A stretch of 64,000 nt of DNA from Thalassospira sp. MCCC 1A03138 (GTDB lineage Bacteria; Pseudomonadota; Alphaproteobacteria; Rhodospirillales; Thalassospiraceae), in NCBI RefSeq assembly GCF_002115785.1, contig NZ_JFJY01000001.1:434001-498000 (forward strand), given 5' to 3'. Positions 12,509 through 53,063 of this stretch are shown one piece after another. The translations under genes were made by a program, and so were the position numbers. Each line of letters begins with the position of its first letter. The stretch's first letter is position 1. The notes under the pieces were generated by a model. The model was not told where the DNA came from. It saw only the letters and a list, made by a program, of their open reading frames with translations, and made no database searches.

Positions 12509-14086
12509 ATGCAGGTATTGATCGTTGGTGGACTGGGCGGTCAGATCGGCGCAGCCAGCAAGATCGCGATGGCACGCGGCGCAACAGTCCAGTTGGCCGA
12601 AAGTGTCACGACATCGCTGAATATCCTGCGCGCAGGCAACCGGATCGATCTGGTTATGGCTGACATCACCCTTGATGTTGCGGCCTTGATTGAAGCTATG
12701 CATCGTGAACGGATCAATGTCCCGGTTGTCGCGTGTGGCATCGGCAATGACGTCAATGGTGCGGTCAATGCGATCAAGGCCGGTGCCCAGGAATTCATCC
12801 CCCTGCCACCCGAAGCCGACCTGATTGCCGCCATCTTCGAGGCCGTTACCGAAGAAAGCCATGCCCTGATCCATCGCGATGCCCGCATGGCGGAAACCCT
12901 TCGTCTGGCAACCCAAGTCGCCAACAGTTCCGCCTCCATCCTGATTACGGGCGAAAGCGGCACCGGCAAGGAAATCATATCGCGCTTTGTTCATCGTAAA
13001 TCCAACCGGGCGGACAAACCATTCGTTGCCGTGAACTGTGCCGCGATTCCCGACAACCTTCTTGAATCCGAACTGTTTGGCCACGAAAAAGGTGCGTTTA
13101 CCGGCGCACAGGCCCGCCGCATCGGAAAGTTTGAAGAAGCCAATGGCGGTACCCTTTTGCTTGATGAAATCAGCGAAATGGATGTCCGCCTTCAGGCAAA
13201 GCTGCTCCGCGCCATTCAGGAAAAGGAAATCGACCGTCTGGGCGGTAAAAGCCCGGTCAAGGTAGATGTCCGTATTCTAGCGACCTCGAACCGCAATCTT
13301 GAGGCTGAAGTCAATGCGGGCAACTTCCGTGAAGATCTTTATTTCCGCCTGAACGTCGTCAATCTCGATATTCCTTCGCTGCGCGAACGGCCTGACGATA
13401 TTCCGGTTCTGGCGGAATTCTTTGTTAAAAAATATTCCGAAGCCAACGATGTGCCGATCCGCCCAATCAGCCCGCTGGCAATTACGCGTTTGCGTAGCCA
13501 TCACTGGCGTGGCAATGTTCGCGAACTTGAAAATACCATGCACCGCGCCGTCCTGATTGCCGGTCCGACGGAAATCGGCCCCGAAGCCATCATGCTTTCG
13601 GGTGCCGGAAGCAGCGAACCGGGTTGGCAGTCTGCTCCGTCCCCCGAAGCAGCGGCGCCTGCCCCGGCTCCTTCGCAGCCAGCCCCCAGTGCGCCGTCCC
13701 GCGCAAGTTCGGCCTATGCCAATGCGGCTTATGGTGGGGCGGCCTATCGGCCGGTTCCCCCGGCACAGCAAGCACCACATGCACCTGCCCCGCTGCCAGA
13801 TCATCACGACGATTATGCCCCCCCCTGCCCGGCAGTACCGGTCGACCATGATGCGGATAGCGCCGATCAAATCAACGCGGATTCATCGGTCACGGCAGCC
13901 CTGGTCGGTCGCACGGTTGCAGATGTAGAACGCGATCTGATCATCGATACGCTGAAACATTGCTTTGGCAACCGCACCCATGCGGCAAACATTCTGGGCA
14001 TTTCGATCCGCACACTGCGCAACAAGCTTCGTCAATATACCGACGAAGGCCTTGCCGTGCCGCAACCTGGCAATGGTCAGGACTGA
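12509..14086 (+). CDS. flbD: Sigma-54-dependent flagellar transcriptional activator FlbD
   Basis: FlbD activates late sigma-54 flagellar promoters. The receiver-like domain (1-115) lacks the acidic pocket (VLIVGGLGG instead of a DD motif), as FlbD receivers typically do. The AAA+ domain has Walker A GESGTGKE (148-155), the sigma-54 contact loop GAFTGA (195-200) and Walker B GGTLLLDE (213-220). A Pro/Ala-rich linker (~375-455) and a Fis-type helix-turn-helix ([20 protein letters not shown], ~485-505) follow. The whole chain resembles Caulobacter FlbD. Likely targets in this window are the sigma-54 promoters at 1245 and 3955. Its trans-acting partner FliX is not in the window. Confidence 0.93.
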
Positions 14087-37178: not shown

Positions 37179-37339
37179 CAGCACGTAACCGCCTGCGATG
37201 GCACGGAACTTGCTCAAATGAAAAGATTGAATAATTCGGCGTCTTGACGGAATTTGATACGCAAGATCGCATCCATCGGCTACCGGACGCACCAATCCGG
37301 TGATCTGATTTAAATGATAACTAAGGTCGGAACGGGTAA

Positions 37340-47059: not shown

Positions 47060-47851
47060 TCACGCTTTGAATTTGCCACCCCGCATAGCAACGATCATGC
47101 CGCGAAGTGTCTGAACTTCCTGATGGGTCAGGTTGGCGCGGTTGAAAATATTGCGGATATTGCGTGCCATATTCGGGCGTTTTGCCTCCACCCGGAAGAA
47201 GCCGGAATTGTCCAGTTCCGCCTCAAGATGTTCGAACAAACGATCCAACTCGTCCCGGGTGGCCGGAAAGGTATCGTTCATCATCATCTGGTAGTCGGGC
47301 ACATCAACACCGGCCTGCCACCATTCATATCCGATCAGCAACACCGCCTGCGCCAGATTAAGCGACGTGAAACCGGGGTTAAGCGGTACGGTTACAACCG
47401 CATCGGCCATCGAAATATGTTCGTTGCGCACACCGGTGCGTTCCGGACCGAACAGCACCCCGACCTTTTCCCCCCGCGAGACATTGGCACGCATTTCAGG
47501 CGCCAGCCCCTTTGGGGTAAAGACCGGCTTGATCGCGTCGCGCGTCCGCGCGGTCGTCACATAAACCCGGTTCAGATCCGCCAGCGCATCTTCTTCGCGC
47601 TCGAACACCTTGGTATTGTCGATGACAATATCAGCCCCTGATGCATTGGCCGTCGCCCGTTCATTGGGCCAGCCATCACGTGGCCGCACCAGACGCAGGT
47701 CAACCAACCCGCAATTAAGCATGGCGCGCGCCGCCTTGCCGATATTATCGCCAAGCTGCGGTTCAATCAGGATGATGACAGGCGGATTGGCGATACCGCC
47801 GGTTTCGGGTCTTGCGCCATCCGGCATAGCCGCGTTTGCGACGTCGCTCAT
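47060..47851 (-). CDS. trmJ: tRNA (cytidine/uridine-2'-O-)-methyltransferase TrmJ family
   Basis: A SPOUT-class methyltransferase acting at position 32 of tRNAs. The N-terminal knotted domain (about 25-180) has VIILIEPQLGDNIGKAARAM with the conserved N/R residues, VGVLFGPERTGVRNEHI and VPLNPGFTSLNLAQAVLLI, the three SPOUT motifs. A C-terminal helical part includes MMMNDTFPATRDELDRLFEH. The 263-residue length is normal. It lies upstream of rpsD, which has its own promoter. Confidence 0.93.
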   Translation of the reverse strand: MSDVANAAMPDGARPETGGIANPPVIILIEPQLGDNIGKAARAMLNCGLVDLRLVRPRDGWPNERATANASGADIVIDNTKVFEREEDALADLNRVYVTTARTRDAIKPVFTPKGLAPEMRANVSRGEKVGVLFGPERTGVRNEHISMADAVVTVPLNPGFTSLNLAQAVLLIGYEWWQAGVDVPDYQMMMNDTFPATRDELDRLFEHLEAELDNSGFFRVEAKRPNMARNIRNIFNRANLTHQEVQTLRGMIVAMRGGKFKA

Positions 47852-48122
47852 CGCTTGAATTCTCCGGTCTTTGCATGGGGTGAAGTGCGGGCATGCCCGT
47901 CAATATTGGCGTTTCTTTACCAAAAGCCAATGCACGATACCAGTACACATTACACACACGAATAATGCATACATTTTGAACATTTTTATTTTTATGGTGA
48001 TTTTTTAATCATAAATTGTGCGGTGCATATATGCATTTCGCACGAGGGGCAGCGCCACCAACACCAGTATTATCCTTTATTTCCATATCATTACCGTCAT
48101 CCGAAGATACATTTCAGGTGAC
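47852..48122. other. AT-rich intergenic region upstream of the guanidine operon
   Basis: Gene-free and clearly more AT-rich than the surroundings. It contains the perfect 12-base palindrome TGCATATATGCA (48024-48035), flanked by GTGCG (48018-48022) and CGCAC (48039-48043), so the dyad spans about 26 bases. Another inverted repeat ATTGGC (47905-47910) / GCCAAT (47926-47931) lies nearer trmJ. The dyad sits roughly 115-120 bases before the predicted sigma-54 start, a normal distance for an activator site. Confidence 0.5.
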
Positions 48123-48138
48123 TGGCATATACATTGCT
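48123..48138 (+). promoter_or_regulatory. Sigma-54 promoter of guanidine operon
   Basis: TGGCAT-N5-TTGCT (48123-48138), with GG (48124-48125) and GC (48136-48137) 12 bases apart, one mismatch from consensus. The predicted start (~48148) is immediately before the riboswitch aptamer at ~48151. Confidence 0.78.
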
Positions 48139-48150
48139 TCTGTTTGAGTG

Positions 48151-48258
48151 TGCAGCGCGCCTAGGGTTCCGGTTCCGAAAGGAATGCTGGTCCGAGAGGC
48201 GCAAGCCGGTCAACGTTTCATAGACCGGTGACACGGCGGGCCAAAATCCCGGGAGACA
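48151..48258 (+). promoter_or_regulatory. Guanidine-I riboswitch (ykkC aptamer)
   Basis: The sequence carries the hallmark conserved blocks of the guanidine-I (ykkC) aptamer in order: CTAGGGTTCCGG (48161-48172), CTGGTCCGAGAGGCGC (48187-48202) and ACACGGCGGG...CCCGGGAGA (48231-48256). Helices are visible: GCGCC (48157-48161) with GGCGC (48198-48202); TTCC-GAAA-GGAA (48173-48184); and CCGGTC (48206-48211) with GACCGG (48223-48228). The 3' strand CCGGGAGA (48249-48256) can instead pair with TCTCCCGG (48287-48294), a plausible expression platform. It precedes transporter and guanidine hydrolase genes. Confidence 0.95.
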
Positions 48259-48363
48259 ACTGCACAGGTTTGTCGCGCACAAGCCTTCTCCCGGTTTGTG
48301 TGCAAGAGCCTTTCTTGAATTGACTGATCCGAAGTGATCCGCAAAACAAGCAGGAGCGCACAC

Positions 48364-49434
48364 ATGTTAAAGACGTTTTTTAAAACACTTTCGTTTGCCG
48401 CCGTCCTTTCTGCCTCTCTGGCTTCCCTGCCAGCCCACGCCGAACAAAAGTCCGATTTCAAAGTCTGCTGGTCGATCTATGTCGGCTGGATGCCGTGGGG
48501 GTATCTGCAAGATAGCGGCATCATGAAAAAATGGGCCGATAAGTACGATATCTCGGTCGATATCGTGCAGATCAACGATTACGTTGAATCGATCAACCAA
48601 TATACCGCTGGCGAATATGACGGCTGCTCCATGACCAATATGGACGCGCTTTCGATCCCGGCCGGTGGCGGCGTTGATACCACCGCCCTGATTGTTGGCG
48701 ATTATTCCAACGGCAATGACGGTATCATCCTGAAAGACGCAACCGACCTTGCCGCCATCAAGGGGCAGAATGTCAATCTGGTCGAACTTTCCGTTTCCCA
48801 TTATCTGCTGGCACGCGCCCTTGAGAAAGTAGGTCTGTCCGAACAGGACGTCACCGTCGTCAATACATCCGATGCCGACATGATCGCGACCTATGCCACC
48901 GATGATGTAACATCGGTCGTGACGTGGAACCCGCTTCTGTCGGAAATTGCCGCCAACGATAATGCAACGCTTGTCTTTGACAGTGCGGGAATTCCCGGTG
49001 AAATCATCGATATCATGATGGTCAACACCGAAACCCTTGCCGACAATCCGGCATTTGGCAAAGCACTGGTCGGTGCATGGTATGAACTGATGGGCATCAT
49101 GTCGTCCGACACCGACGAAGGCATTGCCGCACGCACCGCTATGGCCGAAGCATCTGGAACAGACCTTGCCGGATATGACGCCCAGCTTGCCAGCACGGCG
49201 ATGTTCTTTACCCCGGACAAGGCCGTTGAATTCACCAAATCGGCCGAGCTTCCCGAAACCATGAAATTCGTTGCCGAATTCCTGTTCGACAAAGGCATCC
49301 TTGGCGAAGGCGCACCAAGCCCTGAATTTGTCGGCGTCAGCTTCCCGGATGGCAGCATCTATGGCGACAGCACAAATGTGAAGCTGAAATTCGACACGAC
49401 CTATATGGAGATGGCCGCCAAGGGCAAGCTTTGA
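48364..49434 (+). CDS. Guanidine ABC transporter substrate-binding protein (predicted)
   Basis: Periplasmic binding protein of the NitT/TauT-like class (often labelled putative urea ABC transporter). A Sec signal MLKTFFKTLSFAAVLSASLA ends after AHA. The mature protein begins EQKSDFKVCWSIYVGWMPWG, with aromatic residues (W, Y, W) that could form a cation-binding pocket. It lies first after a guanidine-I riboswitch and upstream of a guanidine hydrolase, so guanidine is the likely ligand. ATG 48364 follows AGGAG at 8 bases; the frame is open to 48334. Length 356. Confidence 0.88.
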   Translation: MLKTFFKTLSFAAVLSASLASLPAHAEQKSDFKVCWSIYVGWMPWGYLQDSGIMKKWADKYDISVDIVQINDYVESINQYTAGEYDGCSMTNMDALSIPAGGGVDTTALIVGDYSNGNDGIILKDATDLAAIKGQNVNLVELSVSHYLLARALEKVGLSEQDVTVVNTSDADMIATYATDDVTSVVTWNPLLSEIAANDNATLVFDSAGIPGEIIDIMMVNTETLADNPAFGKALVGAWYELMGIMSSDTDEGIAARTAMAEASGTDLAGYDAQLASTAMFFTPDKAVEFTKSAELPETMKFVAEFLFDKGILGEGAPSPEFVGVSFPDGSIYGDSTNVKLKFDTTYMEMAAKGKL

Positions 49435-49600: not shown

Positions 49601-50422
49601 ATGCGTATCATCAATCGCACCCTTTCCCGGCGCGCAGCCATATTGCTGGGCTCGATCCCGTTTGCGCTTTTGATCGGAGCCTATGCCATCGCAAGCCATC
49701 TGCGCCGGATCGATAATCCGGCGGATAAGCTGTTGCCGTCGCTTAGCAGCATGGGGGATGCGATCTGGCGCATGGGGTTTGAGGCCGACAAACGGTCGGG
49801 CGATTATCTGCTGTGGCTTGATACGGTCGATAGCCTGTCGCGCCTTGCGGTTGGCATTTTCATTTCCACCATGCTTGCCGTCGGGCTTGGTATTTCCATC
49901 GGCTTCATTCCGCACATCAGGCGCGGTCTGGCGCCCTTTGTCGCCACCCTGTCCCTGATCCCGCCAATCACCATCCTGCCGATTCTGTTCATCATTTTCG
50001 GATTGGGCGAGACTTCCAAAGTAATGCTGATCGCGATTGGCACCGCCCCGGTCATGATCAGGACTATCGCGCAAGCGGTGATGGATATTCCGCGCGAACT
50101 GATCATCAAGGCCGAAACGCTGGGTGCATCAACATGGCAAATGATCACCCGTGTAGTACTGCCGCAAGTCATGCCCAAACTGATCACCGCCATCCGGCTT
50201 GGCCTTGTCCCGGCATGGATATTCCTGATTTCGGCCGAAGCCATCGCATCCACGAGCGGCCTTGGCTATCGCATCTTTCTGGTGCGCCGTTACCTCGCGA
50301 TGGATGTGATCCTGCCTTATGTAGCCTGGATCACGCTTCTGGCCTTTATTCTTGACCAGTTGCTGTTGATGGCATCGCGCAAGGCGTTCCCTTGGAACCA
50401 CCTTTCGGGGGATAGTCTGTGA
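49601..50422 (+). CDS. Guanidine ABC transporter permease (predicted)
   Basis: A 273-residue permease with about six membrane helices and the EAA loop IKAETLGASTWQMITRVVLP. It fits the TauC/SsuC-type permeases. The first helix is AAILLGSIPFALLIGAYAIA. ATG 49601 is chosen since AAGGTGA lies 6 bases upstream. It lies between the binding-protein and ATPase genes, its stop overlapping the ATPase start by one base. Specificity is inferred only from the operon. Confidence 0.9.
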   Translation: MRIINRTLSRRAAILLGSIPFALLIGAYAIASHLRRIDNPADKLLPSLSSMGDAIWRMGFEADKRSGDYLLWLDTVDSLSRLAVGIFISTMLAVGLGISIGFIPHIRRGLAPFVATLSLIPPITILPILFIIFGLGETSKVMLIAIGTAPVMIRTIAQAVMDIPRELIIKAETLGASTWQMITRVVLPQVMPKLITAIRLGLVPAWIFLISAEAIASTSGLGYRIFLVRRYLAMDVILPYVAWITLLAFILDQLLLMASRKAFPWNHLSGDSL

Positions 50423-51240
50423 TGCGCGACCCAAAATTCATGATCCGCAACCTGACCAAGTCTTACGGCGAATATCCGGTGCTTGAACGCATCAATCTGG
50501 ATATCGAAGCCGGGGCGTTTTGCACGCTGGTCGGGGCATCGGGCTGTGGCAAATCGACCTTCTTGCGCATGCTGCTGTCCCAGGAACTGCCAAGTGGCGG
50601 CGATATCCTGATGGATGGCGCACCACTGCCGCAACAACCCACCCCTGATCGCGGCATTGTCTTTCAACGCTATTCGGTTTTTCCGCATCTGACCGTTGCT
50701 GAAAACCTGATCATCGGCGCGGAATTTGCCGCCCGCAAACTGACCGGTCGCCTGTTTGGCCGCGCGCGCAAAAAGGCCCGAGACGATGTTGCCGAACTGC
50801 TTGAAACCATAGGCCTTTCGCCTGCCGCCAACAAATATCCCAGCCAGCTTTCGGGCGGCATGCAGCAACGCCTTGCCATTGCGCAGGCCCTGACGATGAA
50901 GCCCGGCGTGCTGTTACTCGACGAGCCATTTGGCGCGCTTGATCCGGGCATTCGCAACGACATGCATGAATTGCTGCTGGGCCTTTGGAAGACGCATGAC
51001 ATGACAATATTCATGGTCACGCACGACATCCACGAGGCGTTCAAACTCGGCACCCGGATGCTGGTATTTGACAAGCTGCGCGATGATCCGGTCACACCCG
51101 AATCCTATGGTGCAACCATCACATATGACCTGCCGATTGACCTGTCTGTCGCACCGGTTCCCGGTGCCAATGGCGAAACCGATGAAACCGACGGCATGAA
51201 TTTTTCGACCGCTCTGATGGCGACCATGCCCGTTCCCTGA
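50422..51240 (+). CDS. Guanidine ABC transporter ATP-binding protein (predicted)
   Basis: ATPase subunit of 272 residues. Walker A is GASGCGKSTF (about 38-47), Q-loop GIVFQRYSVFPHL, signature LSGGMQQRLAIAQAL, Walker B VLLLDEPFGALDP, and the switch His is in FMVTHDIHEAF. A C-terminal ~50-residue extension (LRDDPVTPESYGATITYDLP) is typical of this transporter subgroup. It starts at ATG 50422, overlapping the permease stop as TGATG; GTG 50419 is also possible. Confidence 0.92.
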   Translation: MRDPKFMIRNLTKSYGEYPVLERINLDIEAGAFCTLVGASGCGKSTFLRMLLSQELPSGGDILMDGAPLPQQPTPDRGIVFQRYSVFPHLTVAENLIIGAEFAARKLTGRLFGRARKKARDDVAELLETIGLSPAANKYPSQLSGGMQQRLAIAQALTMKPGVLLLDEPFGALDPGIRNDMHELLLGLWKTHDMTIFMVTHDIHEAFKLGTRMLVFDKLRDDPVTPESYGATITYDLPIDLSVAPVPGANGETDETDGMNFSTALMATMPVP

Positions 51241-51295: not shown

Positions 51296-52534
51296 ATGCG
51301 CGATTTCTTTGCCCCCCAAAATGTCCGCCGACATCGCGTGGCCGGAACATTGCCAGCCCCCGCCACAACCCGCCACCACCACCCGAATTTCGACAAGCTG
51401 CAATTGCGCGGCTGGAAATCGGCGGAAAAAGAAGCCCTGCTGCCATCAGCCGCTTGGGAAAAGGAAAAGCAGTGGGCGCTTCGCATGGGTCTGACCGGGT
51501 CCGATTGCCTGACTGATAAATCAATCCCGACCTTTGCCCGGGGGGAATTGCCCCATTATGCCGGGATCAATACCTTTCTGAAAGCGCCCTATATCGAAGA
51601 CGTTACCAAGGTCGGTGCCTATGACGCGGCGGTCATAGGCATCCCGTTTGATGGCGGCACGACATACCGGCCCGGCACGCGTTTTGGCCCGCAGGGGGTT
51701 CGCAAGATATCCGCCCTTTACACGCCCTATAACTATGAAATGGGGGTCGATCTTCGCGAACAGATGACGCTGTGCGATGTGGGCGATGTTTTCACCATCC
51801 CGGCCAATATCGAAAAGACCTTTGACCAGATCACGCGCGCGGTCAGTCACGTCGCATCCAGCGGCGCGCTGCCGATCATGATCGGTGGTGATCACTCCAT
51901 CGGCTTCCCCTGCGTGCGCGGCATTGCCCAATGCACATCCAAACGCATCGGCATCGTGCATTTCGACCGCCATATCGACATTCAGGAAAAGGACCTTGAT
52001 GAACGCATGCACACCACGCCGTGGTTCCATGCCACTGATCTGGTCAATGTTCCGGCGGTGAACCTTGTGCAGGTCGGCATTGGCGGCTGGCAGGTCCCGC
52101 GCGAAGGGGTCGAAGTTGCGCGCAATCGCAATACCAACATCTTCACCATGCGCGATGTCGAGGAACTCGGACTTGCCGAAACCGCGGCACGCGCGCTTGA
52201 ACTGGCATGGAAGGATGCTGATGCTGTCTATATCTCGTTTGATATAGACAGTGTTGATTGCGGGTTCGTTCCGGGCACCGGCTGGCCGGAACCTGGCGGC
52301 TTCCTGCCGCGCGAGGCACTGGAACTTGTATCGCTCGTCGCCGCCGAAGGCATTTGCGGGCTTGAGGTCGTTGAGGTTTCCCCGCCCTATGACTGTTCGG
52401 ACATTACCGCCCTGCTGGCAACGCGCGTGATTGTCGATGTGCTGGGCACACTGGTGTCGCACGGCAAAATGGGATCGCATCGCGGCATCATCGACAAACC
52501 GGTAAGCATCCCCGCCGGCCCGGATGTGGAGTAA
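51296..52534 (+). CDS. gdmH: Nickel-dependent guanidine hydrolase (GdmH type, arginase superfamily)
   Basis: Ureohydrolase-fold enzyme predicted to split guanidine into urea and ammonium. The metal ligands of the superfamily are H200 in GGDHS, D224/H226/D228 in HFDRHID and D316/D318 in SFDID. The stretch after it, IQEKDLDERMHTTPWFHATD, and GTGWPEPGG (327-335) match the GdmH group (Synechocystis Sll1077) rather than agmatinases. An N-terminal extension (~90 residues, with RHHHP) is also typical of GdmH. Start ATG 51296 follows AAGGA. It lies in a riboswitch-controlled operon with a transporter. Annotation pipelines usually call it agmatinase. Confidence 0.9.
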   Translation: MRDFFAPQNVRRHRVAGTLPAPATTRHHHPNFDKLQLRGWKSAEKEALLPSAAWEKEKQWALRMGLTGSDCLTDKSIPTFARGELPHYAGINTFLKAPYIEDVTKVGAYDAAVIGIPFDGGTTYRPGTRFGPQGVRKISALYTPYNYEMGVDLREQMTLCDVGDVFTIPANIEKTFDQITRAVSHVASSGALPIMIGGDHSIGFPCVRGIAQCTSKRIGIVHFDRHIDIQEKDLDERMHTTPWFHATDLVNVPAVNLVQVGIGGWQVPREGVEVARNRNTNIFTMRDVEELGLAETAARALELAWKDADAVYISFDIDSVDCGFVPGTGWPEPGGFLPREALELVSLVAAEGICGLEVVEVSPPYDCSDITALLATRVIVDVLGTLVSHGKMGSHRGIIDKPVSIPAGPDVE

Positions 52535-52538
52535 CCCG

Positions 52539-53063
52539 ATGCCCCATGATCATCCCCACACCCACACGCATCATCAACATGATCACGACCACCATCATCA
52601 TGATGTCGGGCACAACCACTCACACGGACCGGGGCATAATCACGCCCCGGACCACGATCACCTGCATTCGCATGTCCATGGCCAAAGTGACGCCGACCAT
52701 GCCGAAGAATTACAGGTCCTGTCCTCAAGCTTCGTCGAAGGCTTCCGCAAGGCCGATGACAAGGCAAGCTACCTTCGCCTTGCCGACATCCCGTTTCAAA
52801 AGACTGGCAAGGATGGCCTGACCATGCATCTGGTCGATGCCAAAATCACCACGCACTGGCAAATCGGCACCGCCTGCCCGGCCTTTGCCACCCGCGAACT
52901 GGCCTATCTGCCGTTCCCCGGCAGCATGATCGAGGAACGCGAAACCATGACATTTACCTATGTGTCGATGACCGAACGCGCCGATATCGACCTGCTAAGC
53001 TTCATGGCCGAACGCTTCGGACATGCGCACAATCATGACCACCTGCATCACCATCACAGCTAA
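52539..53063 (+). CDS. Histidine-rich protein, candidate nickel chaperone/store
   Basis: A 174-residue cytosolic protein. About 22 of the first 47 residues are His, interspersed with Asp, Asn, Gly and Pro. The last 14 residues again hold eight His (HAHNHDHLHHHH). The core (~55-160) has FVEGFRKADDKASYLRLADI and GTACPAFATRELAYLPFPGS, with one Cys; I recognise no known family. It has neither the zinc Cys pairs of HypA nor the P-loop of HypB. Position at the end of the operon and His content suggest nickel delivery to, or storage for, GdmH. It starts at ATG 52539 with GGAG upstream, 4 bases after gdmH. A terminator follows. Confidence 0.8.
   Translation: MPHDHPHTHTHHQHDHDHHHHDVGHNHSHGPGHNHAPDHDHLHSHVHGQSDADHAEELQVLSSSFVEGFRKADDKASYLRLADIPFQKTGKDGLTMHLVDAKITTHWQIGTACPAFATRELAYLPFPGSMIEERETMTFTYVSMTERADIDLLSFMAERFGHAHNHDHLHHHHS

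Follow-up and report, generated by a model that had tools for sequence, protein, structure and literature searches.

Guanidine-I (ykkC) riboswitches, a class in which guanidine binding turns expression on according to the portions of the literature consulted, have been described before guanidine-assimilation genes in comammox and in Vreelandella. The consulted portions of those accounts describe operons that combine a transporter with a guanidine hydrolase or a carboxylase pathway. The locus considered here carries an aptamer of the same Rfam family before an operon of the same kind. It lies in a 64,000-nucleotide (nt) stretch of the genome of Thalassospira sp. MCCC 1A03138 (contig NZ_JFJY01000001.1, positions 434,001 to 498,000), which we refer to as the window and whose first base is position 1 in all coordinates below. 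Directly before the aptamer, we found a -24/-12 element characteristic of sigma-54 promoters. Judging from the genomes compared, this arrangement is typical of the sampled Pseudomonadota in which guanidine-I aptamers precede assimilation genes.

The window contains a single guanidine-I aptamer at 48150-48257 on the plus strand, matched over its full length (1-107) by the Rfam covariance model RF00442 with a score of 78 bits (gathering score 63, E = 3.5e-12), and a genome search found no second guanidine-I aptamer elsewhere in the same genome. The sigma-54 element (TGGCATATACATTGCT, 48123-48138, plus strand) consists of GG at 48124-48125, ten bases, and GC at 48136-48137, and departs from TGGCAC-N5-TTGC by a single mismatch (T for C at position 6). 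If the last C of the GC is counted as -12, transcription is predicted to start on the plus strand at about 48149, which is the 5' edge of the aptamer. A first-pass annotation of the window had already placed a sigma-54 element directly before a guanidine-I riboswitch, and the RF00442 match, the position and the conservation of the element confirmed this. The start predicted there was about 48148, a few bases before the aptamer; the count given above puts it at about 48149.

The sequence of the element is unremarkable by itself. Seven sites on the two strands of the window score at least 21 of 22.5, and TGGCAC-N5-TTGC with up to two mismatches occurs 97 times against 86.8 expected in shuffles, an excess that is not significant. 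Pattern counts confined to the window were not used as evidence; the element is judged to be more than a chance match because of its position and conservation.

The comparative survey, which the first-pass annotation had suggested, was strongly positive. The search for RF00442 covered 29 genomes from the genus, 297 from the order, 385 from the class and 398 from the phylum, in overlapping sets. In the sampled Pseudomonadota, 120 aptamer places were found, one of them without upstream DNA, and the remaining 119 were scored for a sigma-54 element. The weights were our own, taken from the sigma-54 consensus, and were set after the upstream sequences had been seen; each aptamer was accompanied by four control windows, of which two lay further upstream, one lay downstream and one was antisense. 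A score of at least 21 was reached within 100 nt upstream of 84 of the 119 aptamers and in 0 of 119 windows in each of the four controls. Lowering the limit to 20 gave 87 aptamers versus 0, 0, 0 and 1 in the controls, and lowering it to 18 gave 92 versus 7, 7, 10 and 14, each out of 119. The element was present in all six loci of the genus. When 13 EamA-linked aptamers, one of which has the element, were set aside, 91 of the other 106 carried it at a score of at least 19, namely 54/66 in the same class as the window (Alphaproteobacteria) and 37/40 in the other classes of the phylum. Counted by taxonomic family, 33 of 40 contained at least one case, every scored locus was a case in 30, and seven contained none.

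The aptamers set aside (L026-L030, L076 and L131-L137) match RF00442 with 32.8-58.4 bits, many with a TCCAWGTG start, and stand before EamA-type transporters, a label based for these 13 low-scoring loci on one gene cluster and the Pfam match of one member. Their ligand may differ. A separate observation concerns L054 and L059 (genomes G619 and G540), where an aptamer with a sigma-54 element precedes, in L059, a gene whose product carries a TonB-receptor plug domain and, in L054, a relative of that gene; the arrangement suggests that guanidine or a derivative is taken up across the outer membrane.

The spacing between promoter and aptamer was conserved as well. Among the same-class loci, 54 have the element together with an aptamer of more than 60 bits, and in every one of them the predicted start fell between -4 and +6 relative to the first Rfam position. 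Helix P1 begins at model position 7, that is, after the predicted start, and the transcript of these loci is therefore expected to begin with the aptamer. The predicted start lies 23-73 nt before the aptamer in the other classes. There (L078-L093 and L326-L353), the leader between the predicted start and the aptamer often contains a GTGC...GCAC pair and may hold an extra RNA element.

For a held-out sample, the prediction was fixed beforehand, with weights and threshold unchanged. The sample comprised all previously unscored aptamers from 150 genomes of Burkholderiaceae (the family of G967) and 10 genomes of the order of G335. All 48 aptamers had the element, compared with 2 of 96 control windows that reached 19, although these loci are close relatives and do not equal 48 independent events. 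Every sampled Burkholderiaceae aptamer carries the element. The family was assigned from its nearest named relatives, two Caballeronia plasmids whose taxonomy lines give Burkholderiaceae; read by eye, both plasmids also show the aptamer core preceded by a -24/-12 element. These results bear on the possibility that the -24/-12 match in the window arose by chance and that a housekeeping promoter drives the operon. The seven equally good sites in the window are compatible with that possibility; the contrast of 84/119 with 0/119 in each control, the 48 of 48 held-out aptamers and a simple scan of 47850-48370 that found no sigma-70-like promoter all argue against it, and we regard it as very improbable. 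The sigma-54 promoter is almost certainly real.

Two further samples extended the range of the arrangement. A scan of genome contigs for the element at 12-42 nt before TAGGGTTCCG matched at least 118 stretches, and among the 80 matches listed 75 were aptamers: 60 passed a strict aptamer expression, and reading 16 of the 20 that failed it by eye revealed the core in 15. The listed aptamers included ones from alpha- and gammaproteobacteria (Mesorhizobium, Bradyrhizobium, Azospirillum, Devosia, Acinetobacter and Solimonas), and the gap was 21-27 nt in 51 of the 60 strict-expression loci among the matches listed, though 12-42 nt had been permitted. L198, L213, L229, L247 and L248 were rejected as chance matches, cmscan finding no guanidine-I aptamer in L198, L229, L247 and L248; the matches in Paenibacillus, Polyangiaceae, Polaromonas and Pandoraea were dropped for this reason. 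In the aptamers of Acinetobacter (L174, L175, L188, L194, L204, L205, L231, L232, L238-L240 and L249), ACCGAGAG replaces GTCCGAGAG, and the sigma-54 element is retained at a gap of 26-27 nt. The second sample was independent of the aptamer, consisting of 15 loci from among 239 plasmid records in which the transporter gene is present. The aptamer core was present in nine, and no core was found in the upstream stretch of the other six. Core and element occurred together in six of the nine (Rhizobium johnstonii, R. tropici, R. etli CFN 42, Agrobacterium and two Pantoea).

As for the protein partners of such a promoter, the genome encodes RpoN (234 bits) and has 12 strong matches to the sigma-54 activator domain, one of which is NtrC (716 bits, with GAFTGA). 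Upstream of the element in the loci of other classes, the motif GCAC-N7-GTGC, which we take to be the enteric NtrC consensus, was found exactly in 10 of 37 loci (versus 0) and with one mismatch in 26 of 37 (versus 6). The exact motif was also present in 19 of the 48 held-out loci, where divergent pairs share one intergenic region. Such pairs were seen in several Burkholderiaceae as divergent guanidine-I aptamers separated by about 550 base pairs (bp), both of them with a sigma-54 element of their own (e.g., G969:C3:20710-21394, L124/L128 and L360-L370), and they probably share NtrC sites. A search of the same-class loci for the GCAC half-site motif gave nothing clear. TGC-N11-GCA occurred there at 31 sites, distributed over 26 of 55 loci (one EamA-linked locus included), against 4 and 6 sites in the controls, and the N11 spacing was more enriched than any other spacing tried. 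This motif was derived post hoc from enriched words, and P-II genes served as an independent check. A sigma-54 score of at least 20 was found at 18 of the 30 P-II loci examined (52 places found), and 12 of those 18 had TGC-N11-GCA within 220 nt. The candidate NtrC site of the window (48019-48035, strand not assigned; TGC at 48019-48021 and GCA at 48033-48035) is one loose match, 104 nt before the -24 element. It is common to three of the six loci of the genus; one of the others has a different TGC-N11-GCA, and two have none.

Published expression data point in the same direction. RNA-seq of Burkholderia cenocepacia H111 under nitrogen limitation showed lower levels of I35_7283-7286 in an ntrC mutant, with a log2 value of -6.0 for urea carboxylase and two genes without reads in the mutant (PMC5491218). 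These genes were annotated as a urea carboxylase-related transporter and urea carboxylase and read as urea genes, and 95% of the top 150 NtrC genes were also sigma-54 regulated (PMC5491218). They resemble the operon discussed here in their annotation, and the consulted portion of that study mentions neither guanidine nor a riboswitch.

NtrC is probably the activator of the promoter. Another enhancer-binding protein, such as NtrX or a local regulator, could act on a genuine sigma-54 promoter instead: the 12 activator-domain matches include an NtrX-like protein (L043, named by eye) adjoining NtrC, and the NtrC-like site of the window is weak. Against this stand the enrichment of NtrC-like sites across loci at the spacing seen before P-II genes, the dependence of the B. 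cenocepacia genes on ntrC and the lack of an activator gene in the operon, and we consider such a substitute activator unlikely.

Downstream, bases 48249-48256, which form the 3' strand of the last aptamer stem, can also base-pair with 48287-48294 and so enclose a second stem of 8 pairs. The resulting OFF hairpin, predicted at 48249-48294 on the plus strand, is incompatible with the last aptamer stem and has a computed energy of -21.5 kcal/mol in the window and -21.5 to -21.8 kcal/mol in the genus. A competing downstream hairpin is possible when the OFF hairpin is absent, and both are kept in all six genus loci. The alternative structure is claimed at the level of the genus; as a general feature, pairing between the aptamer 3' strand and a downstream anti-strand was rejected, as it was found in 28 of 105 loci versus 11 in the control, with a T-rich tail in 0. 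Termination is the likely mode of control.

These elements can be combined into a scheme in which two inputs are required. Under nitrogen shortage, phosphorylated NtrC bound upstream would activate sigma-54 RNA polymerase at 48123-48138, and transcription would begin near 48149, where the guanidine-I aptamer starts. The nascent RNA would fold at once. If guanidine, the ligand expected from the riboswitch class, is present, the closed aptamer would block the OFF hairpin and allow read-through into the transporter and hydrolase genes. If guanidine is absent, the OFF hairpin would form and the transcript would end early. We think it quite probable that such a two-input gate controls the guanidine-uptake and guanidine-hydrolase operon, and AND logic can be expected with similar confidence provided that the riboswitch acts as its class does. 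The two-layer control by nitrogen limitation and guanidine proposed in the first-pass annotation is supported by the survey, the presence of RpoN, an NtrC with GAFTGA, enriched NtrC-like sites and the content of the operon; its AND logic is what we infer.

Several observations weigh against the scheme. The OFF hairpin is followed in the window by UUUGUGUG, a poor U-run, so the control may instead act on translation. The candidate NtrC site of the window, being a loose match, is weak evidence for this locus, and TGC-N11-GCA is missing from the searched stretch of 29 of the 55 same-class loci. Three of the nine plasmid loci with a core (Sinorhizobium fredii NGR234 and two Rhodobacterales plasmids) lack the element. 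The B. cenocepacia genes responded in a study whose consulted portion does not mention guanidine (PMC5491218), which might reflect a leaky riboswitch or sufficient endogenous guanidine. The last point and the weakness of the U-run would suit a situation in which the promoter layer alone matters, nitrogen control being decisive and the riboswitch being leaky or tuning the level rather than gating, since wild-type B. cenocepacia expresses its genes under nitrogen limitation with no mention of guanidine in the portion of the account consulted (PMC5491218). The conservation of the aptamer with an intact core and the alternative hairpin conserved in the genus speak for a gating riboswitch, and control by the promoter alone appears rather unlikely.

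A further point against the scheme is that 15 of the 106 non-EamA aptamers have no element within 100 nt, mostly in rpoN-bearing genomes. One of these exceptions, L075, has a site scoring 21.0 at 156 nt upstream of a 41-bit match without the core. For the other 14 exception genomes (aptamers of more than 60 bits), rpoN was found in 11, G1022 has two divergent copies, and no rpoN match was obtained in G889 and G983. Loss of rpoN as a general cause was rejected, as it accounts for part of the exceptions only (2/14). Loss of GAFTGA was rejected as a cause for the eight of 14 genomes that keep it (G560, G464, G338, G159, G250, G716, G752 and G1005); the search string was unmatched in G756, and there was no NtrC match at the strict limit in G419, G762, G889, G983 and G1022. 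With rpoN in 11 of the 14 genomes and GAFTGA kept in eight, neither cause explains most losses of the element. We regard it as likely that a dedicated gate of NtrC/sigma-54 and guanidine-I riboswitch extends across Pseudomonadota, with the start at the aptamer 5' end in its alphaproteobacterial form.

The promoter and riboswitch lie in a 512-bp intergenic region between a TrmJ-like gene (47060-47851, minus strand) and the divergent plus-strand operon. The operon opens with genes for an ATP-binding cassette (ABC) transporter: a substrate-binding protein (48364-49434, plus strand; TIGR03427, 550 bits against a cut-off of 334), a permease (49604-50422, plus strand; PF00528) and an ATPase (50419-51240, plus strand; PF00005). 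TIGR03427 denotes a putative urea binder, and the substrate of the protein encoded here is most likely guanidine. A ureohydrolase of the GdmH type follows (51296-52534, plus strand), matching 7esr/7oi1 with 537 bits and 9fek with 527 bits, while the next best match reached only 176.5 bits; we take 7esr/7oi1 to be the Synechocystis guanidine hydrolase and 9fek to be the comammox guanidinase. By gene content, with a GdmH-type ureohydrolase and an uptake system, the operon looks like a guanidine-assimilation operon. The last gene (52524-53063, plus strand), after the guanidine hydrolase, encodes a protein of 179 amino acids, rich in His both along its long N-terminus and in its tail, for which no Pfam or NCBIfam match was found. 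It may serve the guanidine hydrolase as a nickel chaperone. Elsewhere in the window, two further strong sigma-54-like sites stand on the plus strand at 1245-1260 (one of the seven high-scoring sites), about 100 nt before a fliD-like flagellar gene (named by eye), and at 37199-37214, about 140 nt before an open frame of 277 amino acids. A sigma-54 activator domain (L034) is encoded at 12869-13366 on the plus strand in a protein that is FlbD-like by eye, which fits the nearby flagellar gene.

COG3665 presumably corresponds to DUF1989, now carboxyguanidine deiminase. A computed sigma-54 regulon contains 102 COG3665 genes in the alpha, beta and gamma classes, 59% of them named urea carboxylase (PMC12316311). 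In the consulted portion of that work, COG3665 is filed as poorly characterised, guanidine is unmentioned and the word riboswitch appears in a reference title only (PMC12316311). Our search of titles and abstracts found no paper linking guanidine riboswitches with sigma-54, RpoN or NtrC, which does not establish that such a link is absent from print. Keyword searches of the consulted portions gave no match for NtrC in the guanidine literature, including a review, and no useful passage on such an operon in PMC5748707, PMC12829801, PMC3293034 and PMC7801951.

If the proposed gate is genuine, sigma-54 transcription is systematically paired with one riboswitch class, and the alternative nitrogen sources served by the Ntr regulon include guanidine rather than urea. 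It would explain how the costly guanidine pathway is avoided during ammonium plenty, and it suggests that published NtrC/sigma-54 targets named urea carboxylase are guanidine genes. It also predicts that assays of native guanidine riboswitches in these bacteria need nitrogen-limited cells for a response. Within a few bases, the gate would join a protein cascade that reports nitrogen status to an RNA that senses the substrate, and this pairing of two unrelated sensors is easily tested.

Both parts of the arrangement are of known kinds, and their systematic fusion is the new element. The consulted portions of the comammox and Vreelandella accounts do not mention sigma-54 or NtrC, whereas here the promoter belongs to the unit. 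The NtrC/sigma-54 promoters of P-II, glnA and urease genes share the -24/-12 element with this locus, and the spacing of the upstream sites matches that before P-II genes. Unlike at those promoters, the predicted start here coincides with the 5' end of an aptamer, which would add a check for the substrate.
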